Assembly: GCA_016935955.1 (NCBI GenBank)
Contig: JAFGPY010000232.1
Location: forward strand, 1 to 8,682
DNA: 8,682 nt
Origin: Planctomycetota bacterium
GTDB lineage: Bacteria; Planctomycetota; Phycisphaerae; FEN-1346; JAACEH01
Reading direction: 5' to 3'
The position numbers and the translations under genes are program-made. Shown here piece after piece: positions 1 through 8,682 of this stretch; positions within the stretch are counted from its first letter, which is position 1; each line of letters opens with the position of its first letter. The notes beneath the pieces were generated by a model. That model was not told the origin of the DNA. It saw nothing but the letters and a program-made list of their open reading frames with translations, and searched no databases.

Positions 1-276
1 GAGTTGGTGGAAGGCCATCTGATGCCGGATCACATGCACATGTGCCTGAGCATTCCGCCGAAGTACAGCGTGGCCCACACGATCGGCTTCTTGAAAGGTA
101 AGAGTGCGGTGCGGATTCACCGGGAGTTGCTGTCAGAACGCCGGATGACCGGGCTGCACTTCTGGGCTACGGGGTATTCGGTCAGTACGGTGGGACTGGA
201 CGAGGCGCAGATTCGCCGCTACATCCGCGACCAGGAGAAGCGGGACAGTAAGCAGGGCGACCTGGACCTCGGCTAA
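1..276 (+). CDS. tnpA: IS200/IS605-family HUH (Y1) transposase TnpA, 3' part only
   Basis: This is the C-terminal 91 codons of a single-strand DNA transposase; the reading frame is open to the window edge, so roughly the first third of the usual 140-150 residues lies outside. The HUH metal-binding motif is seen as PDHMHM, with His codons at 31-33 and 37-39. The family signature KYSVAHTIGFLKGKSAVRIH follows, then HFWATGYSVSTVG, then the C-terminal helix YIRDQE, whose Tyr (codon 220-222) is the expected nucleophile. Such enzymes cut and rejoin hairpin-marked ends of single-stranded DNA. No TnpB gene follows, so the element is IS200-like rather than IS605-like. Nothing in the visible part is broken, so the element may be intact. 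The assignment is secure; the subgroup is not. Confidence 0.93.
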   Translation, partial: ELVEGHLMPDHMHMCLSIPPKYSVAHTIGFLKGKSAVRIHRELLSERRMTGLHFWATGYSVSTVGLDEAQIRRYIRDQEKRDSKQGDLDLG

Positions 277-283
277 CGGAAAC

Positions 284-330
284 GGCCCCAACGGGGCCTT
301 CCCTATGTGAACGGCCCCCTCGGGGGGGCC
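284..330 (+). terminator. Two tandem GC hairpins after tnpA, terminator-like
   Basis: Two near-copies of one hairpin lie just after the tnpA stop. The first is GGCCCC/GGGGCC (284-289 with 293-298, loop AAC). The second is GGCCCCC/GGGGGCC (313-319 with 324-330, loop TCGG). Both are preceded by AAC and followed by TTCC. They could terminate transcription leaving tnpA, shielding the downstream RNA operon, although the T-tracts are very short. They could instead be structural hairpins of the element. Function is inferred. Confidence 0.5.
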
Positions 331-334
331 TTCC

Positions 335-365
335 TAAAGCCACGCCCTCTGGGCGTGGATCTTTA
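335..365 (+). repeat. Right-end hairpin of the IS200-type element
   Basis: TAAAG (335-339) pairs with CTTTA (361-365), and CCACGCCC (340-347) pairs with GGGCGTGG (351-358). The loop is TCT and there is a two-base AT bulge at 359-360, giving 13 base pairs in total. A bulged subterminal hairpin a few bases inside the cleavage site is what TnpA dimers recognise in this family. TCAA follows three bases later. Confidence 0.75.
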
Positions 366-408
366 CCTCAATGGGTAGAGCGGTCCGTTTCTCCAACTCT
401 TGTCGCCG
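366..408 (+). pseudogene. Remnant of a second YrlA-type Y RNA gene, cut by the IS element
   Basis: This stretch parallels the 3' half of the intact tRNA-like RNA downstream. It has a D-arm (CTC at 367-369, GAG at 377-379, with AATGGGTA between), then TCTCCAA and CTTGTCGCC. The intact copy reads CTCAATTGGATAGAGC, then TCTCGCCAA and CTTGTCGCCG in the same order. There is no T-arm or acceptor strand upstream; the IS200-type end stands there instead. It is most simply the 3' half of a tandem sister Y RNA gene split by transposition. TCTTGTC (398-404) corresponds to the putative Ro60-motif strand of the intact copy with one change. The homology was judged by eye and is short, so this is moderately supported. 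Confidence 0.6.
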
Positions 409-416
409 GTCGAATG

Positions 417-433
417 TTGGCAACCGAAGTGCG
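417..433 (+). promoter_or_regulatory. Candidate sigma-54 (-24/-12) promoter for the Y RNA-rtcA operon
   Basis: TTGGCA (417-422) followed by TGC (430-432) places GG and GC exactly ten bases apart, as sigma-54 promoters require (consensus TTGGCACG-N4-TTGC). In enterobacteria the rtc operon is driven by sigma-54 with the activator RtcR, so this promoter type is expected here. A start about 12 bases after the GC would fall near 443-445, precisely where an 8-bp stem of the RNA begins. Mismatches: positions 423, 424 and 429. That start would exclude the putative Ro60-binding 5' strand at 433-440, which argues for a second upstream promoter or against this site. RtcR is not in the window. Confidence 0.4.
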
Positions 434-555
434 GCGAATGCCGGTGGGACTACATCGGATCTCAGGGTTCCAGGTTCGAGTCCTGGCGTCCGGTCGCCAG
501 ATCGGCCGTAGCTCAATTGGATAGAGCATGAGGCACGTCTCGCCAATACCTTGTC
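433..555 (+). ncRNA. yrlA: YrlA-type bacterial Y RNA (circularly permuted tRNA mimic)
   Basis: Read 5' to 3', the RNA folds as a tRNA opened in the anticodon. The basal stem has 443-450 pairing 537-544 (8 bp, two G-U). The anticodon-like stem is TCTCA (460-464) with TGAGG (529-533). A 5-nt variable loop GGGTT follows, then T-arm CCAGG/CCTGG (470-474, 482-486) with loop TTCGAGT. The acceptor-like stem pairs 487-495 with 500-508 (8 of 9 pairs) and is capped by GCCA (496-499). T509 and A510 precede the D-stem GCTC/GAGC (511-514, 524-527) with loop AATTGGATA. Known tRNA tertiary partners are present: T509-A515, A516-T469, G519-T476 and G520-C477. Below the basal stem, GGCGAATG (433-440) and CCTTGTC (549-555) fit the Ro60-binding motifs of bacterial Y RNAs as I recall them (GNCGAAN0-1G and CNUUGNC). 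Known YrlA RNAs bind Ro60 and lie beside rtc genes. The transcript ends are inferred. Confidence 0.8.
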
Positions 556-591
556 GCCGCACACGGCTTTGAGAAGTTGAGAGGTAGCGCC

Positions 592-1617
592 ATGATTACC
601 ATCGACGGCAGCATCGGCGAGGGCGGCGGCCAGGTCCTGCGGACCAGCCTGGCGCTGTCCATGCTCACGGGACAGCCGCTACGCATCGAGAACATTCGCG
701 CCGGGCGCGACCGGCCGGGCCTCCTGCGTCAGCACCTGACGGCCGTGCGGGCCGCCAAGCAGATCTGTGGGGCGGAAGTTGTCGGCGACGCCATCGGTTC
801 GCGCGAACTCTCGTTCACGCCCGGCAAGGTTACTGGCGGGCACTACGAGTTTGCCATCGGCACGGCTGGCAGCGCCACGCTCGTGCTTCAGACCGTGCTG
901 CCAGCGCTGCTCGTGGCCGGGGAGCGGTCGACGCTGCTTCTGGAAGGCGGCACGCACAATCCGTGGGCCCCGCCATTGGACTTTCTCCAGCGGGCCTTCC
1001 TGCCGCTGGTGCGCCGCATGGGGCCGAAGGTCAGCGCCGAGTTGGATCGCTACGGCTTCTACCCGGCGGGCGGTGGGCGGTTCCGTGTGACCATCGACCC
1101 GGCCACCCGCCTCGCGCCGCTCGAACTGGTCGAGCGCGGCGAGATCCGCCGCAAGCGGGCCACGGCGGTCGTGTCGCAATTGCCGATGGACATCGCCCTG
1201 CGCGAGCTGAAGGTGATCGGCAAGAGGCTCGGCATGACGGTCGATCCGCCGGACATCGTCTTCGTCAAAGACCCGGTCGGACCAGGCAACGTCGTTTTCA
1301 TCGAAATCGAGGGCGAGCACGTGAGCGAGGTCTTCACCGGCTTCGGCCAGCACGGCGTCCGGGCCGAGGCGGTCGCGGAGAAGGTCGCCAAAGAAGTGCG
1401 TCGCTACCTGGCCGCAGGTGTGCCCGTCGGCGAGCATCTGGCCGATCAACTGCTGGTGCTCATGGCCACCGCTGGCGGACGGTTCCGCACGGTGGCCCCG
1501 AGCCGGCACACGACCACGAACATCGAGGTCATCAAGGCCTTCCTGCCGGTCGAGATTGTTACGGCCTGCGTTGACGAGGCGAAGGGCGTGTGGGAGATCG
1601 AGGCAAGGAAGGCGTAG
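592..1617 (+). CDS. rtcA: RNA 3'-terminal phosphate cyclase RtcA
   Basis: RtcA converts an RNA 3'-phosphate to a 2',3'-cyclic phosphate through an adenylated enzyme and an activated RNA end. The 341-residue length matches the family (E. coli about 338). It opens with MITIDGSIGEGGGQVLRTSLALS, the standard N-terminus, and continues with IRAGRDRPGLLRQHLTAVRAA, GGTHNPWAPPLDFLQ and GEHLADQLLVLMAT. The nucleophile that takes AMP should be His306 in PSRHTTTN, corresponding to E. coli His309. I chose the ATG at 592 because it gives the family N-terminus and has GAGAGG 7 nt upstream; an in-frame TTG at 577 is less likely. It follows the Y RNA directly and is 11 nt from rtcB. The order rtcA-rtcB is the reverse of E. 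coli. In Salmonella, RtcA is also needed to make the cyclic-phosphate tRNA fragments sensed by RtcR. Confidence 0.97.
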   Translation: MITIDGSIGEGGGQVLRTSLALSMLTGQPLRIENIRAGRDRPGLLRQHLTAVRAAKQICGAEVVGDAIGSRELSFTPGKVTGGHYEFAIGTAGSATLVLQTVLPALLVAGERSTLLLEGGTHNPWAPPLDFLQRAFLPLVRRMGPKVSAELDRYGFYPAGGGRFRVTIDPATRLAPLELVERGEIRRKRATAVVSQLPMDIALRELKVIGKRLGMTVDPPDIVFVKDPVGPGNVVFIEIEGEHVSEVFTGFGQHGVRAEAVAEKVAKEVRRYLAAGVPVGEHLADQLLVLMATAGGRFRTVAPSRHTTTNIEVIKAFLPVEIVTACVDEAKGVWEIEARKA

Positions 1618-1628
1618 GGAGAGTTGCA

Positions 1629-3026
1629 GTGAAGCCGCGAGAGTTGAGAAACCTGGGCGTCCCCAAGGGCGAGGCGATGAAGGCCGCCGTCGCGTGCATC
1701 GCGGCGGCTGCGGAGGCGGGCCTGAGCAAAGAAGCGATCCGCGCGGCTGTGCGCGAGGTGGTAGCCGATCCGGCCGCGTACCAGGTGGACGAGCATTTCG
1801 GTGCGATGGCCACGGCGCTGATTGCCTCCGCGAAGTTGCAGGCGACGTACACGCCGCGCGCCGAGCCGGCCCCGTGGCGACAGTGGGGCCGCGACCTGGA
1901 GCCGTCCGCGGTCGAGCAGCTTCGCAACGCCTGCTCGCTGCCCGTGTCGGTTGCCGGGGCGCTCATGCCCGACGCCCATCAGGGCTACGGCCTGCCCATT
2001 GGCGGCGTGCTGGCGACTGACAATGCGGTCATCCCGTTCGCCGTCGGCGTCGACATCGCCTGCCGGATGAAGCTGACGGTGCTCGACCTGCCGGTCGAAG
2101 CCATCGACGGCCAGCGCGGGCGGCTGGTCCGCGCCCTGGAGGACGAGACGCGCTTCGGCGTCGGGGCGACGTTCCGCAAACGCCGCCAGCATCCGGTCAT
2201 GGACGACGACTGGACGATCTCGCCGGTCACCATCGCCTTGAAGGACAAGGCCTGGAGCCAGTTGGGTACGAGCGGCAGCGGCAACCACTTCGTGGAGTAC
2301 GGCACGCTGACGCTGGAGCGCGACGATCTGGGCCTCGAGACCGGCGTCTACCTGGCACTGCTCTCGCACAGCGGAAGCCGCGGCACGGGAGCGGGCGTGG
2401 CTGAGCATTACAGCAAGGTGGCCCAGGGCCGCCACGGCGAGTTGCCGCGCGAGCTCAGCCACCTGGCCTGGCTCGACCTCGATAGCGCCGAGGGCCAGGA
2501 GTACTGGGCGGCCATGGAGTTGATGGGCCGCTACGCCGCCGCCAACCACGAGTTGATCCACCGGCACATCGCCCGGCACCTGGGCGTCGACGTGCTACTG
2601 GACATCGAGAACCACCACAACTTCGCCTGGCGCGAGACGCACGGCGGGCACGAGGTCGTCGTGCATCGCAAGGGCGCCACGCCCGCCACGGCGGGCACGC
2701 TCGGCATCATTCCCGGCTCGATGGGCACGGCCGGCTACGTAGTCCGCGGCCGCGGTGAGCCGACGTCGCTCCACTCGGCCAGCCATGGCGCCGGACGCAA
2801 GATGAGCCGCACCAAGGCCAAGGAGACGTTCACCTGGCACCAGGCGAAGAAGTTCCTGGCCGACCGCAACGTCGACCTGCTCTCGGCAGGCCTCGACGAG
2901 GTGCCGATGGCGTACAAGGACATCGACGAGGTCATGGCCGCCCAGCGCGACCTGGTCGAGCCCGTGGCCCGCTTCGATCCGCGGCTGGTGAAGATGGCCC
3001 CCGCGGGGGAACGGCCGGAGGATTGA
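1629..3026 (+). CDS. rtcB: RNA-splicing ligase RtcB
   Basis: RtcB joins RNA 2',3'-cyclic phosphate or 3'-phosphate ends to 5'-OH ends using GTP and Mn2+; these are the ends left by many anticodon nucleases. The 465-residue protein shows MPDAHQGYGLPIGGV (Asp115, His117), GVDIACRM (metal ligand Cys145), GTSGSGNHF, LLSHSGSRG, ENHHNFAW, HRKGATPA, GIIPGSMGT and the guanylylated His386 in SASHGAGRKMSR, then AYKDIDEVM. All catalytic motifs are present. It is longer than E. coli RtcB (408 aa), mainly through an N-terminal helical extension of about 70 residues. The start is probably GTG at 1629, preceded by GGGAGAG just after the rtcA stop. An ATG at 1590 would overlap rtcA by 28 nt and lacks a clear ribosome site. 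Co-expression with rtcA and the Y RNA points to repair of cleaved tRNA or similar RNA. Confidence 0.96.
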   Translation: MKPRELRNLGVPKGEAMKAAVACIAAAAEAGLSKEAIRAAVREVVADPAAYQVDEHFGAMATALIASAKLQATYTPRAEPAPWRQWGRDLEPSAVEQLRNACSLPVSVAGALMPDAHQGYGLPIGGVLATDNAVIPFAVGVDIACRMKLTVLDLPVEAIDGQRGRLVRALEDETRFGVGATFRKRRQHPVMDDDWTISPVTIALKDKAWSQLGTSGSGNHFVEYGTLTLERDDLGLETGVYLALLSHSGSRGTGAGVAEHYSKVAQGRHGELPRELSHLAWLDLDSAEGQEYWAAMELMGRYAAANHELIHRHIARHLGVDVLLDIENHHNFAWRETHGGHEVVVHRKGATPATAGTLGIIPGSMGTAGYVVRGRGEPTSLHSASHGAGRKMSRTKAKETFTWHQAKKFLADRNVDLLSAGLDEVPMAYKDIDEVMAAQRDLVEPVARFDPRLVKMAPAGERPED

Positions 3027-3034
3027 GGACGCCC

Positions 3035-3520
3035 ATGGATCAAACGATGCTCGCAAGATGGCAGGCGGCCGAAACGCCATTTGACGGAGCGGCTCTGTGG
3101 TCAAACACAGACCTGACACGGGACCAGTTGGCCAAAGCTGTCTCGTGTATGGTATCATTTGTGGCCAGTCGAATCGGGCTTGCAGAGCGCCTGCACGTCA
3201 TTGAAGACTGGCACAATCATGATGGTTATGTAACCAACCCCAAAGAGGTCGTGTCTGCTCTCTTTGTCCGGGAGGTCGGGCGGGCAGACTCTGAGTGGTT
3301 CCGCTTGATGGACACCTTTGTCTACTGGGGCGTGTACGACGAGACCATGCGCTTCTATCTCAGATTCGGCATGGGCGACGAAGAAGCCGCCGGATACTTT
3401 GATCTGTCAACAGGATCGGAGATCGTTGCACAATTGGCCACTGAGCTGACAGAGACCCTTGGCATTCCCGTTGAAGTGGAGCCCGCCAAAGAGCTGTTTG
3501 ACAGAACATACGCGGGGTGA
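3035..3520 (+). CDS. Uncharacterised 161-aa protein between rtcB and hen1
   Basis: I do not recognise this protein. It begins MDQTMLARWQAAETPF, has no signal peptide or membrane segment, and looks like a small, acidic, soluble alpha/beta protein. Tryptophans and aromatics cluster in its centre (EDWHNHDGYVTNP, SEWFRLMDTFVYWGVYDETMRFYLRF). The tail GSEIVAQLATELTETLGIPVEVEPAKELFD could be an alpha-beta unit. The ATG at 3035 has GAGGA 5 nt upstream, overlapping the rtcB stop, and the gene ends 4 nt before hen1, so it is surely co-transcribed and translationally linked. In sampled lines (3061-3300) GC is about 56%, against about 68% in rtcB, so it differs in base composition from its enzyme neighbours. 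Size and acidity recall immunity- or adaptor-type proteins, but that is speculation. Confidence 0.85.
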   Translation: MDQTMLARWQAAETPFDGAALWSNTDLTRDQLAKAVSCMVSFVASRIGLAERLHVIEDWHNHDGYVTNPKEVVSALFVREVGRADSEWFRLMDTFVYWGVYDETMRFYLRFGMGDEEAAGYFDLSTGSEIVAQLATELTETLGIPVEVEPAKELFDRTYAG

Positions 3521-3524
3521 AGCA

Positions 3525-4985
3525 ATGCTGCTAACGATTTCAACCACACACTGTCCGGCCACCGACCTGGGGTATCTGCTGCACAAGAACCCGGCGCGGT
3601 GCCAGACGTTCGAGCTGAGCTTCGGGCGGGCGCACGTATTCTATCCCGAGGCGACGACTCAGAACTGCACGGCGGCGCTCCTGCTGGACGTTGACCCCGT
3701 GGGCATCGTTCGCGGGCCATCGCGGTTCTCGGAACGGTTGCTCGACCAGTACGTGAACGATCGGCCGTTCGTCGCCTCCTCGTTTCTGAGCGTGGCCATC
3801 GCCCAGGTGTTCGGCTCGGCCCTTCAGGGGCGAAGCAAGGAGCGGCCGGAATTGGTCGACACGCCGCTGCCGCTGGTAGCCCGCATCGCGGTGCTGCCAT
3901 GCCGCGGAGGCGAGGCGTTCCTGCGGCGTGTCTTCGAGTCGCTCGGCTACGCCCTTACCGTCACGCCGCACCCGCTGGACGAGACGTTCCCCGACTGGGG
4001 CGAGAGCCCGTACTTCACGGTGGAGCTGTCGAAGACAACCGCACTCAAGGAGTTGCTCACGCACCTCTACGTGCTCGTTCCGGTCTTCGACCATCGCAAG
4101 CACTACTACGTCGGTCAGGCGGAGATGGAGAACCTGCTCGCCAAGGGCGAAGGCTGGCTGTCGTCGCACCCGGAGCGGGAGGCGATCACCTTCCGCTACC
4201 TGAAGCAAGCTCCGAGCCTGGCCCGCCAGGCCCTGGCCCAACTGGCCCAGGAGGACGAGCCTGAAGTCGCAGCGCTGGACGGCGAGGCGTCCGCCGGCGA
4301 CGAGGACTCGGCCGAGGCTCGCATCAGTCTGAACGAAGAACGTCTGGGCACCGTGCTGGCGGCCCTGCGGGCGACCGGCGCCCGGCGCGTGCTCGACCTC
4401 GGTTGCGGCGAGGGCAACCTCGTGCGCGAACTGATGAAGGACAAGCAGTTCGACGAGATCGTCGGCCTCGACGTGTCGATCCGCTCGCTGGAGATCGCCG
4501 CCGATCGCCTGCGACTCGACCGCCTGCCTCCGCACCAGAAGGACCGCGTGCGGCTGCTGCACGGATCGCTCATGTATCGCGACCGGCGGCTGGAGGGCTT
4601 CGACGCTGCAGCCGTGGTCGAAGTGATCGAGCACCTTGACCCGCCGCGCCTGGCGGCTTTCGAGCGGGTGCTCTTCGAGTGTGCCCGGCCGGGGACGGTT
4701 GTCCTCACGACGCCGAACCGCGAGTACAACGTCCTGTGGGCTCGCTTGGCGGGCGACGCGAAGCCGGTCGCGACCACGGGCGAAAGTGCCGTGACCGACA
4801 CGGTCGTCATCTCGCCGCCGCTGAGGCACAAGGACCACCGCTTCGAGTGGACGCGGGCCGAGTTCCGCATCTGGGCCGAAGCCGTGGCCGAGCGTTTCGG
4901 CTATACTGTTCGCTTCCTGCCCGTCGGCCCCGAGGACCCAACCCTCGGCCCGCCGACGCAGATGGCTGTGTTTGAAAGGGAGTAA
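3525..4985 (+). CDS. hen1: Bacterial Hen1, RNA 3'-terminal ribose 2'-O-methyltransferase
   Basis: Hen1 methylates the 2'-OH of the 3'-terminal nucleotide of RNA using S-adenosylmethionine. With Pnkp it marks tRNAs during repair so that they resist re-cleavage by 2'-OH-dependent ribotoxins. The 486-residue protein starts with the typical bacterial Hen1 N-terminal domain (MLLTISTTHCPATDLGYLLHK, VFYPEAT, CTAALLLDVDPVGIVRG), about residues 1-240. After an acidic Ala/Glu-rich linker comes the methyltransferase: SAM motif VLDLGCGEG (289-297), metal-binding EVIEH (Glu366, Glu369, His370, the same numbers as the studied Clostridium thermocellum enzyme), TTPNREYN, and DHRFEWTRAEF, whose His438 is the likely fourth ligand. 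Start ATG 3525 matches the family N-terminus; an upstream in-frame ATG at 3459 lies inside the previous gene. No Pnkp gene is present; the partners here are RtcA and RtcB. The last gene follows after 4 nt. Confidence 0.95.
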   Translation: MLLTISTTHCPATDLGYLLHKNPARCQTFELSFGRAHVFYPEATTQNCTAALLLDVDPVGIVRGPSRFSERLLDQYVNDRPFVASSFLSVAIAQVFGSALQGRSKERPELVDTPLPLVARIAVLPCRGGEAFLRRVFESLGYALTVTPHPLDETFPDWGESPYFTVELSKTTALKELLTHLYVLVPVFDHRKHYYVGQAEMENLLAKGEGWLSSHPEREAITFRYLKQAPSLARQALAQLAQEDEPEVAALDGEASAGDEDSAEARISLNEERLGTVLAALRATGARRVLDLGCGEGNLVRELMKDKQFDEIVGLDVSIRSLEIAADRLRLDRLPPHQKDRVRLLHGSLMYRDRRLEGFDAAAVVEVIEHLDPPRLAAFERVLFECARPGTVVLTTPNREYNVLWARLAGDAKPVATTGESAVTDTVVISPPLRHKDHRFEWTRAEFRIWAEAVAERFGYTVRFLPVGPEDPTLGPPTQMAVFERE

Positions 4986-4989
4986 CAGG

Positions 4990-6198
4990 ATGGGACTGGG
5001 ATTCCTCGTAAAGGCCGATGTGCCAGGACGCGGGCTTCTGCGGCGAAGGCCAAGCCAGAATGCCTTGTTTTCCGAGATCTGCGCCGCAATCCGTAGTCTA
5101 ACCAGCGACCCGCTTATGGCACGAATGTTCATCACCCATACGGATGAGCACACGCTGTCAGTGACACTGCATCCTTGTGCAGAGCCGGTGGAGTTTCTCT
5201 GGCAGCCTGATCAGACAATCGAAGTCTCGGCAAAGACATCCACGGTCGGGCCTGGGTACCATGCCCACGTAGTTGATCTGCTGAATCGGGTTGGTTCGGA
5301 ACTGAGCCTGCGGTGGGACTGGGCGGAAGAGGGAGCCGATGAGACAGGCTTCGCTAACAGTGACAACTTTGATGCTCTTCAGCGCGAGATGGCCACGTTT
5401 CTGAAGGCGCTGGGCGATGTGCCACTGGAACAGAGTGGCAAAGGCCACACTAACCTGATGCTCAACATGGCCTGCGGGTATCCCGCACCAGAAATGGACA
5501 GCTTCGTTATATCGCCGCTGGGGCCGCTGTCCGAGGACTGGTGCCGGGAGTTGACACACGCTGGCGGCGAGACGCTGGCCCAGATGTGCCGGGAATACTA
5601 TCCTTGGTGGGAGCGCGCTCCGGACGCGGTCTGCTGGCGGAGTATCGGGCTCTACCTGATGTGGTGCGAGGTCCGCTGGCACGTGCCCACTGAGGAGCGG
5701 GAACGCGCCACCTGCCAACTGGCGCTCGACTGCATGGAGCGTGCCGCCTCCCAGGATGCTGGCATACAACTGCCAACGTCCGAAATCCAAGAACTGAGAC
5801 GCCTGTTGACTTGGCCCAAGGACGCGCCGCCCCAGCTGCCAGAACCGCAGGGCATCGGCTATCGTCGCCGCAACATGATCCATGCGCTCACCGGGGGCTG
5901 GACGATCAGATTGCCGGGCTATTACTACGAAACGTGGGAGGACGACGGCGCCATGGCCGTGTTCTGGTTTGGCGGGCGGACCGTGCGCTTCACGTCCTTC
6001 ACAATGACCAGCAAGGACGGGCAACCAGCTTCACCGCGAAGCATGCTGAGCGAGAAGACGCCTGAGAAGTTGCAGGGCGCTGAGGTCGTCGATCTGGACA
6101 ACCAGCACCTTCAGGGGTGGGCCACGATACGGCCCGCCGAGGAGGATGGCCAGCCGTTGGTTCCCTTCCGCAGATGGCCGGCAGGCACGCGAACCTGA
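4990..6198 (+). CDS. Uncharacterised ~402-aa protein, last gene of the RNA-repair operon, C-terminus probably replaced
   Basis: I do not recognise the family. The protein has no signal peptide or membrane segment. Its N-terminal half (about 35-150) looks alpha/beta (MARMFITHTDEHTLSVTLHP, VEFLWQPDQTIEVSAKT). The middle is helical and rich in Trp and Cys (REYYPWWERAPDAVCWRSIGLYLMWCEVRW). The last third looks like an aromatic beta-sheet domain (HALTGGWTIRLPGYYYETW, MAVFWFGGRTVRFTSF). The ATG at 4990 has AAGGGAG 7 nt upstream, overlapping the hen1 stop, so it belongs to the operon. The sampled 5' half is about 53% GC, low like the 161-aa gene. The final 14 residues or so are read from what appears to be the antisense of a truncated gene on the other strand, so the native C-terminus is probably lost. 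A role in substrate recognition or control is possible but unproven. Confidence 0.83.
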   Translation: MGLGFLVKADVPGRGLLRRRPSQNALFSEICAAIRSLTSDPLMARMFITHTDEHTLSVTLHPCAEPVEFLWQPDQTIEVSAKTSTVGPGYHAHVVDLLNRVGSELSLRWDWAEEGADETGFANSDNFDALQREMATFLKALGDVPLEQSGKGHTNLMLNMACGYPAPEMDSFVISPLGPLSEDWCRELTHAGGETLAQMCREYYPWWERAPDAVCWRSIGLYLMWCEVRWHVPTEERERATCQLALDCMERAASQDAGIQLPTSEIQELRRLLTWPKDAPPQLPEPQGIGYRRRNMIHALTGGWTIRLPGYYYETWEDDGAMAVFWFGGRTVRFTSFTMTSKDGQPASPRSMLSEKTPEKLQGAEVVDLDNQHLQGWATIRPAEEDGQPLVPFRRWPAGTRT

Positions 6199-6806
6199 TC
6201 GAGCTTGCGGACCCGCAGGGCCACGCGCCGCTTCGTGTCGGCGTCGAGGTCTTTCTCGGCCTTGTCCCAACCGCGAAGCAACGCGCCCTTGGCGTCCACG
6301 AAGGCGTCCAGCGGATACGGCTCGGCCATCGACTTGCCCGCCGCCAGGTGGCCGCGGGCGATCTCCTTGCCGTTCAGGTAGACCGCCGCGCCGCCCTGGT
6401 ACAGGAGCGTCAGCGTCAGGCCCTTCACCTGCGACGGGTCCGTCACGCTGAAGTAGCCTCGCATGCACAGGCGCGACAGATATGGCGTGCGGGCCGACAT
6501 TCGCCCGGGGCCGCGCAGCCAGGTGCTGTCGTCGAACTCCAGATCGGTCCAGCCCTGCGGCACGTCGGCCGTCGCCATATCCATCCACTGGTAGCCGTAC
6601 GTGATGGGCGCGAGTTTCCCGCGGTCGGCGATGACCGGCGGCTGGAGCGCGTGGTACATCCGCCAGAAACCGTACGTGTCGAGAACCACCGGCTGCGTCT
6701 CGGGCACCTTGCGGCTCGGGGTGTCGGCGGCACTCACGGTTGCGGCGTACACTGTGACTATCAGGGCGAGAACGATAAGAACGCGCCTCCGATGAGCGGT
6801 CATCAT
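6111..6806 (-). pseudogene. 3'-truncated gene for a secreted protein with a galactose-binding-like N-terminal domain
   Basis: The - strand frame starts MMTAHRRRVLIVLALIVTVY, a clear signal peptide with basic residues, a hydrophobic core and cleavage after about VSAA, so the product would be exported. AAGGGG lies 4 nt before the ATG at 6806. The mature part contains DTYGFWRMYHALQPP, GYQWMDMATADVP, a WTDLEFDDSTW segment and VYLNGKEIARGH. The last two recall the jelly-roll accessory domains of glycoside-active enzymes. VPAGHLRKGTN is normally followed by more protein in such domains; here the frame breaks and stops at 6111. The visible 232 codons look like the N-terminal piece of a longer protein cut by the junction near 6150. 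A one-base shift near 6155 would give LAI, so a simple frameshift is the alternative. Confidence 0.6.
6135..6165. other. Probable recombination junction at the right border of the RNA-repair island
   Basis: Two convergent genes collide here with an 88-bp tail-to-tail overlap (6111-6198), and each appears to lose its proper end. On the - strand a secreted protein reads well down to RKGTN (Asn codon at 6156-6158), where related proteins usually continue LAIE, and then runs into SSSAGRIVAHP and a stop. On the + strand the 402-aa protein becomes antisense to that gene from about residue 388. A join near 6150 explains both. It could be a natural insertion with deletion or an assembly chimera. Confidence 0.5.
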
Positions 6807-6975
6807 AGAACCCCTTGTTCCCAAGTTGCGGCTATCGGGCAACGTCCCGTACCGTGCGCACGGGAACACGCAATGTCTCGTCAGGCACTCGTTGAACACC
6901 GGGGGCCAAAGTCGGGTAACTGTCAAAACGCGGCGGACCTTTGATGCGAGACGAATGCGAGGTGACTGCCGGGGT
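6807..6975 (-). other. Intergenic spacer between the two secreted-protein genes
   Basis: This 169-nt gap separates the stop of the large - strand gene from the signal-peptide gene. It contains a perfect -35-like TTGACA on the - strand (6926-6921), but I find no convincing -10 at the right distance. It also contains the 12-bp palindrome CCGTGCGCACGG (6852-6863), which overlaps an inverted repeat TCCCGT/ACGGGA (6845-6850, 6860-6865). The palindrome may be an operator or part of a hairpin in the leader. No terminator with a T-run is evident. Confidence 0.35.
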
Positions 6976-8682
6976 CTACGGCTTCTTCTCCATCAACTCG
7001 ATAGCCTTTCGATAGCGGCTGTCGTCGTGCTGCTTCTTCCAGCCGTCGATCGGCGGCATGCCCTCGTCGGTCCGATGCTTCGCCCACATCTCGTTGACGA
7101 AGTCGTCCCAGGCCTGTCCCTGGCGGGCCCAGTCGGCCGAGTGATCGCCCACGTTCGTCTCCTTGAGGACCTTGACGAACTCGGCGTCGTTCTCGTACAT
7201 CCAGCGGTCCACGTAGTCGAAGAACGCATCGTGATTCCAGACCTTCTCTGCCTTCATGAGCCGCATGGCCAGACCCTGGGCCGCCCAGCCGACGCTCGTG
7301 CAACAGCGACGGTACGATTCGCTCATCTTGTCGCCGCGTCGCGACGCCCCCGCGCCCAGTCCGCCCCAGGTCTCCGGGTGCCGGTGCTCGTACGGTCCGG
7401 AACCCGGCCGCCCGGCGCCGGTCTTGGCGTCGATCGCCCGATGGCCGCAGAAGACCACCTTCGCCCCGGTCCAACAGTCGCCGTAGGCCGTCTGCTCGTC
7501 TTCGCCGAAGCTGACCGTCGGGAAGGAGCGGTTGACGTTGGCCAACTCGTCGTCGCCCAGCAGCAGTCCGGCGAAGACGATCGGGATCTTCCGGCCGCTG
7601 CCGTGTCCGCCGAAGGCTTCCCAGCCCGGGTGCCCGGCGCGGACGATCGAGCCCAGGTCGATGCCGATCTGCACGAAGTTCACGAGCAACGGCTCCTTTT
7701 CCTCGGGCGTCAGGTCCGTGCACAAGAGCAGGGCGGTGATGCCCGCCACGCGGCCGTACTCCAGGCCGTATTGCGGCATGTTCTCCACCGGCTCCTCGAA
7801 ACCGAAGAAGCCCGTGCCCAGCCACGGCCGCTGCGTGAACCGCACGTAGAGCCCGACGTTGGCCATGCTCTTCGGACGCTCGGCGCGGGGCAACAGGTCG
7901 CGCTTCAGGTTCCGGGCCAGGTAGACGGTCTGCTTGCGGTCGCAGTAGCCGGGACGGAAGGCGTCGGCCGGTTGCGGCTCGGCCACACAGGTCAGAACGG
8001 CCGCCGTGCGGATCGGGCTGCCGTCGCCCTTGCCGCGCTGGATCTTGTTGCGGAGCTGGGCCGGCAGGACCAACCCGGCAGGCATGCTAATCGTCGCCAC
8101 CAGCGAGTCGCCGGGCTTCATTGCCGCCGGCAGACGCTGGACGAGCGAAGGCTCATAGAAGTTGCGAACGCCGCTGTCGTAGGAGACCTTCTGCGCCGCG
8201 GGCGGGTTGAGCATGAAACCGTTGCGGACCCGCTTGGTCTTGGGATGCTCGATCTCATGTTTGTCGAGTTCGATTTCCGGGATCTCATCGTCATAGAGCG
8301 GCTTGGGATCCAGGGCCTTCACGGTCACCGGGCCGACGACGTACCAGTCGCCGTTCACGAATTGACCGACGCGGGCCGGCTCGGCGAACGTCCAGGTGAT
8401 GCCGTACTGGCTGACGCTCTCCTTGAGCGGCAGGTCTTCCAGCTTCGGCGTCGCCGGGGCATTGTCCGGCGTCGTCACGGCGCGAGTGCCCTTGATCGGC
8501 GTCCACGGGCTCGGCCCCTGGACGGTCGGCGCCACGGGCTGCACCTTCGGCGCGTAGGTCACCGGGCCGCCGAGCGTCACCGACATGTCGTCAATGTACA
8601 GCGTCTGCTCACGTCCCTTGCCGTCGTCGCCGTAGAGGGCGATGGCGTTGAAGCCCTTGAGCCCGCTCTTGGCCGCATCGAA
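6976..8682 (-). CDS. Large probably secreted protein of unknown function, 5' end outside the window
   Basis: The - strand frame is open from the window edge to a TAG at 6976-6978, giving 568 codons. The Met at 8586 is internal: the frame continues upstream as in-frame protein ending LYIDDMSVTLGG, which resembles the last strands of a carbohydrate-binding or concanavalin-like domain. The rest is soluble, with DSLVATISMPAG, a basic stretch, then GHPGWEAFGGHGSGRKIPIVFAGLLL, HRHPETWGG, ESYRRCCTSVGWAAQGLAMRL and a helical, acidic/aromatic C-terminus ending in IELMEKKP. The mixture of beta-sandwich and helical segments is reminiscent of large exported polysaccharide-associated proteins of planctomycetes, but I cannot name a family or reaction. 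It lies upstream of the truncated signal-peptide gene on the same strand and has no visible link to RNA repair. Confidence 0.88.
   Translation of the reverse strand, partial: FDAAKSGLKGFNAIALYGDDGKGREQTLYIDDMSVTLGGPVTYAPKVQPVAPTVQGPSPWTPIKGTRAVTTPDNAPATPKLEDLPLKESVSQYGITWTFAEPARVGQFVNGDWYVVGPVTVKALDPKPLYDDEIPEIELDKHEIEHPKTKRVRNGFMLNPPAAQKVSYDSGVRNFYEPSLVQRLPAAMKPGDSLVATISMPAGLVLPAQLRNKIQRGKGDGSPIRTAAVLTCVAEPQPADAFRPGYCDRKQTVYLARNLKRDLLPRAERPKSMANVGLYVRFTQRPWLGTGFFGFEEPVENMPQYGLEYGRVAGITALLLCTDLTPEEKEPLLVNFVQIGIDLGSIVRAGHPGWEAFGGHGSGRKIPIVFAGLLLGDDELANVNRSFPTVSFGEDEQTAYGDCWTGAKVVFCGHRAIDAKTGAGRPGSGPYEHRHPETWGGLGAGASRRGDKMSESYRRCCTSVGWAAQGLAMRLMKAEKVWNHDAFFDYVDRWMYENDAEFVKVLKETNVGDHSADWARQGQAWDDFVNEMWAKHRTDEGMPPIDGWKKQHDDSRYRKAIELMEKKP

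Follow-up and report, generated by a model that had tools for sequence, protein, structure and literature searches.

The window analyzed here is a stretch of 8,682 nucleotides from a Planctomycetota bacterium, in which an IS element, a YrlA remnant, an intact YrlA gene, rtcA, rtcB, an open frame of 160 aa, hen1 and an open frame of about 402 aa follow one another on the plus strand. The rtcA gene (592-1617, +) matches PF01137 at 272 bits, NF003246 at 458.2 bits and TIGR03399 at 392.7 bits, and its nearest named relatives come largely from Planctomycetota MAGs. The adjoining rtcB gene (1629-3026, +; 465 aa) belongs to the RNA ligase RtcB family (PF01139, 299.7 bits), falls short of the cut-offs set for the narrower NCBIfam RtcB models and is of another subgroup, sharing 28-38% identity with the rtcB found in most loci of the relatives. 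The hen1 gene (3522-4985, +), encoding an RNA 3'-terminal ribose 2'-O-methyltransferase with a Hen1_L N-terminal region (PF12623, 364.5 bits), reaches 686.3 bits against the bacter_Hen1 model TIGR04074, whose cut-off is 340; the claim of a hen1-containing cluster outside the enterobacteria is thereby borne out.

No family was found for the frames of 160 aa (3038-3520, +) and 402 aa (4987-6198, +). A protein search returned 88 proteins related to the latter, itself included, and its homologues yield no named family. The GC3 of these two frames is 0.62 and 0.72, respectively, compared with 0.86-0.91 for rtcA, rtcB and hen1, and from this lower GC3 the two frames flanking hen1 are perhaps later arrivals. 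Beyond the cluster lie long minus-strand frames at 6976-8682 (-) and 6111-6926 (-), to which neither Pfam nor NCBIfam gave a match.

The number of studied species in which bacterial Y RNAs are known is small. On sequence grounds, we assign 431-563 (+) to the YrlA class of these RNAs, using the Rfam model RF02553, a custom model (R1) and covariation. Scanning the whole window with cmscan gave a match to RF02553 at 431-563 (+) that spans model positions 1-114 of 114 (67.4 bits, E 3.9e-14); the remaining two matches in the window are feeble (E 1 and 2.7). The score falls 1.6 bits short of the gathering score of 69 bits, which is the curators' cut-off rather than a biological trait, and relatives of the same layout reach that score in 8/50 and 2/20 genomes. 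When RF02553 was run on 14 control genomes, nine gave matches at E 0.01 and none exceeded the Rfam cut-off. R1, whose 22 training sequences include 431-563 itself, scores the interval at 114.1 bits. ARAGORN predicts no tRNA gene in the window, and there is no contiguous cloverleaf with an anticodon arm. Identity with the Deinococcus Y RNA (RF01053) was rejected, the match scoring 22 bits where the cut-off is 80. Collections of plasmids and phages gave one 71% partial match, on a Novosphingobium plasmid, together with five matches to tRNA that are 25 bases long.

The original prediction had placed a YrlA-type Y RNA next to rtcA at 433-555, and the Rfam match, the covariation and a survey of rtcA loci all uphold it. 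The location was right, although those limits leave off the first 2 nt and the last 5 nt of the outer stem, the paired core running from 431 to 560. Scanning with a covariance model, which it had proposed, matched the full model but just below the curated cut-off. Y RNAs beside rtc genes are already established, and 431-563 adds another; what is fresh is the tandem copy cut by an IS element, the covariation of a tertiary pair and the presence of hen1 in the neighborhood.

The RNA consists of a basal stem in two parts and a circularly permuted tRNA-like module (460-533, +), which was drawn by hand and is backed by covariation. The outer basal stem pairs 431-437 with 554-560 and the inner one 443-450 with 537-544, and the basal strands carry the motifs GGCGAATG (433-440) and CCTTGTC (549-555). 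Within the module, an anticodon-like stem (460-464/529-533) encloses a variable loop of 5 nt (465-469), a T-arm (470-486; stem 470-474/482-486, loop TTCGAGT at 475-481), an acceptor-like stem (487-493/502-508; 6/7 pairs, with a C-U mismatch at 489/506) and a D-arm (511-527; stem 511-514/524-527, loop AATTGGATA), all on the plus strand. The module is without an anticodon loop, both strands leaving through the anticodon-like stem, and the acceptor-like stem is capped by a loop, so that there is no free CCA end.

Evidence for this structure comes from alignment A1, which joins the window RNA to 21 strong YrlA matches from other genomes (22 sequences). Its 36 pairs were written by hand from the window sequence and tRNA rules, and the percentage of paired cells is therefore biased in favor of the structure, the count of both-sided changes less so. 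With that proviso, 35/36 pairs form in the window and 30-36 in the other rows, and 95.8% of the 764 cells are paired, dropping to 38.2-46.5% when the partners are slid by 1-3 columns. Changes on both sides are seen in 24 of the 36 pairs, compared with 15.0 (sd 1.7) in shuffles, and none of 500 shuffles reaches 24; cells with such changes number 130 against 35.9 in the shuffles, a control that leaves the relatedness among the A1 sequences in place. In the outer basal stem, five of seven pairs are changed on both sides and two are invariant (97.4% of cells paired), and in the inner stem the changed pairs are six of eight (97.2% of cells paired). Altogether, 13/15 basal pairs vary and 11/15 show both-sided changes, and the columns GAATGC and T-GTC are invariant across A1. 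The D-stem is also invariant, hence uninformative on covariation; every other helix co-varies.

In tRNA, a tertiary contact joins base 15, which follows A14 in the D-loop, to base 48, which precedes the T-stem; their equivalents in the window, bases 516 and 469, are an A-U pair. Among 83 model hits, 80 of them distinct, fixed motifs allowed 67 to be read, and the other 13 were left out. The readable sequences have G-C (39), A-U (24), A-C (2), G-U (1) and G-G (1) at this pair, a covariation with a Fisher p of 1.2e-14, uncorrected for kinship. The D-loop GG is present in 67/67 of them; the T-loop bases, having been used in the search motif, are excluded as evidence.

Folding energy alone is weak, with z = -1.32 for 433-555 (17/200 shuffles equally stable) and z = -1.99 for 431-563 (17/500), and the structure claim rests for this reason on comparison. 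The minimum free energy fold of 431-563 (-54.3 kcal/mol) departs from the proposed one in the tRNA-like part, and forcing the tRNA-like helices gives -52.7 kcal/mol. Nearest-neighbor pair probabilities are 0.92-1.0 for the outer basal stem, 0.99 for the D-stem and ~0.53 for the inner stem, and they are 0.07-0.10 for the T-stem, 0.0-0.15 for the acceptor-like pairs and 0.0 for the anticodon-like stem. As to the structural claims of the original prediction, the T-arm, acceptor-like stem, D-arm, variable loop and basal stem were all located in the permuted order it gave, and the compensatory changes that it looked for in homologues were found in the 24 pairs above; the folding that it suggested makes the outer basal stem and the D-stem probable but does not favor the tRNA-like part.

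The right part of an IS200/IS605-family element occupies positions 1-366 (+), with a hairpin-bearing right end that closes in TTAC at ~366. It holds the C-terminal 91 aa of a Y1 transposase (1-276, +) in a frame still open where the window begins, matching Y1_Tnp (PF01797) at 71.7 bits and transpos_IS200 (NF033573) at 70.1 bits, where the cut-off is 55. Relatives of window 1-372 are present in 4/343 genomes. All five inspected copies of the IS terminate in TTAC and the flanks beyond are unlike, sharing only their first T, which sets the right end at 366 +/- a base.

Immediately after this end, another YrlA gene is represented by its 3' half (367-408, +), comprising the 3' part of the D-arm and the 3' strands of the inner and outer basal stems; this remnant had not been noticed in the original prediction. 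An nhmmer profile of the 3' half, built from the 21 relatives without the window, matches 367-407 at 27.7 bits (E 1.7e-8) and also recovers the known copy at 509-560, the next, unrelated match in the window having an E-value of 0.11. The match begins at 367 with CTCA of the D-stem. A profile of the 5' half has its sole window match at 432-488, and the full-length model gives 10.9 bits on 224-412, as expected of a half. To judge from the sequence, the IS200/IS605 insertion has split this second YrlA within the D-arm, and the missing 5' half is expected to the left of the window. The gene at 431-563 would then be the last member of a tandem pair and is the only intact copy seen. Tandem YrlA genes are common in relatives; ahead of rtcA, for instance, the model hits one locus (L032) six times and another (L185) twice.

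There is no Ro60 gene within the window, which begins inside the IS element, and we turned to related loci for the wider neighborhood. The window's RtcA was used to fetch 70 rtcA loci elsewhere, and Ro60, RtcR and RtcB proteins from those loci (vWA_Ro60, PF25045; RtcR, PF06956 at 265.9 bits) served as tblastn queries. A Ro60 gene was found in 16 of the 70 loci. The YrlA model hits all 16, in 15 cases at 40 bits or more and in one (L052) at 29.4 bits, and it hits none of the 54 loci without Ro60 once tRNA-gene hits in L038 are set aside, many of these 54 being short contigs, some of which may have lost Ro60 and YrlA together.

The same association appears across genomes. Among 294 genomes from the phylum of genome G024, with YrlA taken at 70 bits or more and Ro60 at E 1e-6, each was found in 28 and both in 24 (Fisher p 3.7e-27, uncorrected for kinship), so that Ro60 is present in 24/28 genomes with YrlA at this level and in 4/266 without. 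Three of the Ro60 genomes without a strong YrlA have weaker hits (G055, 60.4 bits; G135, 59.5; G079, 48.8), and none is listed for the fourth (G138). One YrlA genome missed in the Ro60 survey (G259) gave a Ro60 match of 6.1e-8 in a second search, and adding two genomes with weaker YrlA brings the count to 26/30, Ro60 not being found in G219, G246, G097 and G257. These four may reflect an independent existence of YrlA or incomplete assemblies. Three loci from such genomes carry YrlA at 72-100 bits with no Ro60 found (L186 in G097, L187 in G219 and L188 in G246), the RNA of L186 lying between rtcR and rtcB, and a further locus (L190) has a weaker YrlA hit, likewise without Ro60. We rejected YrlA without Ro60 as a general rule: the six-frame count with Pfam TROVE behind it (8/50 genomes) was riddled with false negatives, and tblastn together with the vWA_Ro60 model located Ro60 beside YrlA in TROVE-negative genomes (G014, G024 and others).

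Two loci, L183 and L185, have a divergent rtcR followed by Ro60, YrlA (one and two copies, respectively), rtcA and rtcB, and their rtcB is 64-68% identical to that of the window; the order is the same in L184, where the rtcB match is short. On the strength of this shared order, Ro60 is predicted to lie to the left of the IS element. Linkage in other genomes also strongly predicts that the RNA binds Ro60, a property named in the original prediction. Elsewhere, YrlA stands beside Ro60 with rtc genes absent from the 1.5 kb seen (L084, L173, L175, L178, L179 and L180). In the gaps between rtcR and Ro60, a narrow sigma-54 promoter pattern occurs in 0/15 and a looser one in 3/15, and control of these loci by RtcR consequently lacks motif support. 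In the window itself, a sigma-54-like GG-N10-GC at 419-432, picked out by eye, was dropped because the start site would lie inside the RNA, and stricter sigma-54 patterns are absent from window 1-700.

Some of these loci adjoin tRNA genes. In Adhaeretor mobilis (NZ_CP036263.1), 30 same-strand tRNA genes (L024:10662-14780) come right after Ro60-YrlA-rtcB-rtcA, and in L038 rtcB-rtcA is followed by predicted tRNA genes, 4 in number; such an arrangement may be a repair operon equipped with spare tRNAs. On L218 (IMGVR_UViG_3300048591_001682), which is classified as a viral contig, copies of YrlA (103, 83.8 and 44.6 bits) are interspersed among 26 tRNA genes, and the Ro60 gene of this contig, at 4507-6072, is 51% identical to the Ro60 of L015. 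For Anabaena, a passage in one paper describes a tRNA array and rtcB as co-regulated (PMC10272220).

The hen1 gene was surveyed separately, with hits in 24/294 and 21/248 genomes and 46 loci with flanks of at most 1.5 kb, some of them two pieces of one gene. Within these flanks, none of the 46 other loci has an rtcA, rtcB, Ro60 or RtcR match near hen1. In 31/46, a P-loop frame, Pnkp-like by eye, lies just downstream of hen1; the window hen1 has no such frame beside it, and the next frame is without a P-loop motif. On another Planctomycetota contig (L001:1871-3033), an rtcA with an in-frame stop directly precedes a hen1 start that is cut off after ~44 residues; this is a decayed rtcA-hen1 pair and the one other hen1-rtcA neighborhood found. 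Matching contig sizes (7,008, 23,260 and 26,624 bases) recur in the best-120 lists of rtcA and hen1 relatives, with ~0.95 expected from near misses, and suggest that the rtcA-hen1 pair recurs. One published study says that pnkp and hen1 always form one operon, but it also describes more distant Hen1s that occur without a nearby pnkp (PMC4411300). An incomplete literature search found no operon of Hen1 with RtcB/RtcA, and we claim no novelty in print.

Compared with known systems, the locus shares with RF02553 YrlA (for the Salmonella type a solved structure, PDB 6CU1, is mentioned in PMC11472068) the full-model match, the permuted tRNA-like module, the basal-stem motifs and the rtcA/rtcB neighborhood. 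It differs in its score below the gathering level, its order of rtcA-rtcB and then hen1, its IS-cut second copy and a Ro60 gene that lies outside the view. Like the Salmonella rsr-yrlBA-rtcBA operon, as outlined in part of PMC7790460, it has two tandem Y RNAs adjoining rtc genes, and Ro60 and RtcR are next door in the window's relatives; unlike that operon, it has rtcA before rtcB, an rtcB of another subgroup, and hen1 and two family-less frames added. With the Deinococcus Y RNA it has in common the class of Ro60-bound Y RNAs and a tRNA-like part, but it is not a member of RF01053. Its Hen1 is of the same family, with the Hen1_L region, as that of the Pnkp-Hen1 cassette, but no Pnkp-like frame follows.

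What is said of Y RNA function in parts of two papers (PMC7790460, PMC8394870) gives a model for the locus. In Deinococcus, the Ro60 protein Rsr is tethered to PNPase by a Y RNA. In Salmonella, rsr-yrlBA-rtcBA is switched on when RtcR binds 5' tRNA fragments with a cyclic phosphate, and DusA and TruB modify YrlA, which the anticodon nuclease leaves uncut. We consider it probable that 431-563 is the intact tandem member between a predicted Ro60 (rsr) gene on the left and rtcA-rtcB-hen1, and that its RNA works as a Ro60 tether. The RNA would be released from a stress-induced transcript of the rtc operon, and Ro60 would grip the basal stem with its GGCGAATG/CTTGTC strands, which we take to be the Ro60 site. 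The outward tRNA-like elbow could then dock the Ro60 particle on tRNA-handling machinery, the partner in known cases being PNPase; the particle would steer the decay or handling of damaged structured RNA, and RtcA/RtcB would reseal RNA that can be salvaged. We favor a tether because the anatomy fits, with a basal stem, an outward elbow lacking an anticodon loop and no free CCA end.

The original prediction spoke of a decoy, scaffold or sensor, and the linkage favors a scaffold on Ro60, whereas decoy and sensor are without direct support. In the decoy (competitive inhibitor) reading, an anticodon nuclease or another tRNA-binding enzyme would be soaked up by the tRNA-like domain and tRNAs would be spared during RNA damage, a role raised in part of PMC7790460 as a possibility for Salmonella YrlA and compatible with the tRNA elbow conserved here. 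We think it unlikely: there is no anticodon loop, both strands exiting through the anticodon-like stem, and a pure decoy needs no Ro60, yet Ro60 is the constant neighbor. A Ro60-bound tether is the mechanism that we prefer. It is quite improbable that the gene is a decaying relic, its promoter and second copy taken by the IS and its RNA no longer made or used. The IS does lie directly upstream, cuts the neighboring copy and may have severed the RNA from its promoter, and no promoter is shown in 409-430; against decay, the intact copy retains all but one of 36 pairs, and the frames of rtcA, rtcB and hen1 are open.

We give very little credence to a cis-acting leader, in which the tRNA-like fold, standing 29 nt ahead of the start codon of rtcA, would sense repair enzymes or damaged tRNA and regulate rtcA translation. 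The gap between RNA and rtcA is short here (563 to 592) and also in L183 and L185, but elsewhere the RNA precedes rtcB, forms arrays such as the six hits of L032 or, in the six loci listed above, stands ahead of Ro60 where the 1.5 kb seen contains no rtc gene, and Ro60, not rtcA, is its constant neighbor. It is scarcely credible that a tandem pair of ordinary tRNA genes, or what remains of them, was misread as one permuted tRNA made up of the 3' part of the first and the 5' part of the second. This reading was rejected, since the two flanks pair and co-vary with each other and since bases 15 and 48, which would sit in different molecules, co-vary as well; YrlA models do weakly detect true tRNA arrays (18-27 bits in L024, with its 30 tRNA genes, and 19-34 bits in L038) and RF02553 at E 0.01 matched most of the control genomes, but the scores here are 67.4 bits with Rfam and 114 with R1, no control passed the Rfam cut-off and ARAGORN finds no tRNA in the window.

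YrlA with RtcA/RtcB and a Hen1 without neighboring Pnkp is a combination seen in no other locus examined. One speculative reading, to which we attach a low probability, is that a single operon unites a Ro60-carried tRNA mimic, end-sealing by RtcA/RtcB and a Pnkp-less Hen1, which would act on 3' ends repaired by RtcB or held by Ro60/YrlA and not in Pnkp repair. Its methylation might, for instance, block re-cutting or decay of these 3' ends.

For the YrlA family, these results mean that the Rfam cut-off leaves out true members and that the constant partner of the RNA is Ro60 rather than rtcA/rtcB. Covariation across arrays shows that selection acts on the three-dimensional fold of the tRNA elbow. 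Should the pairing with hen1 prove functional, it would connect RtcB repair with the 2'-O-methylation of RNA ends.
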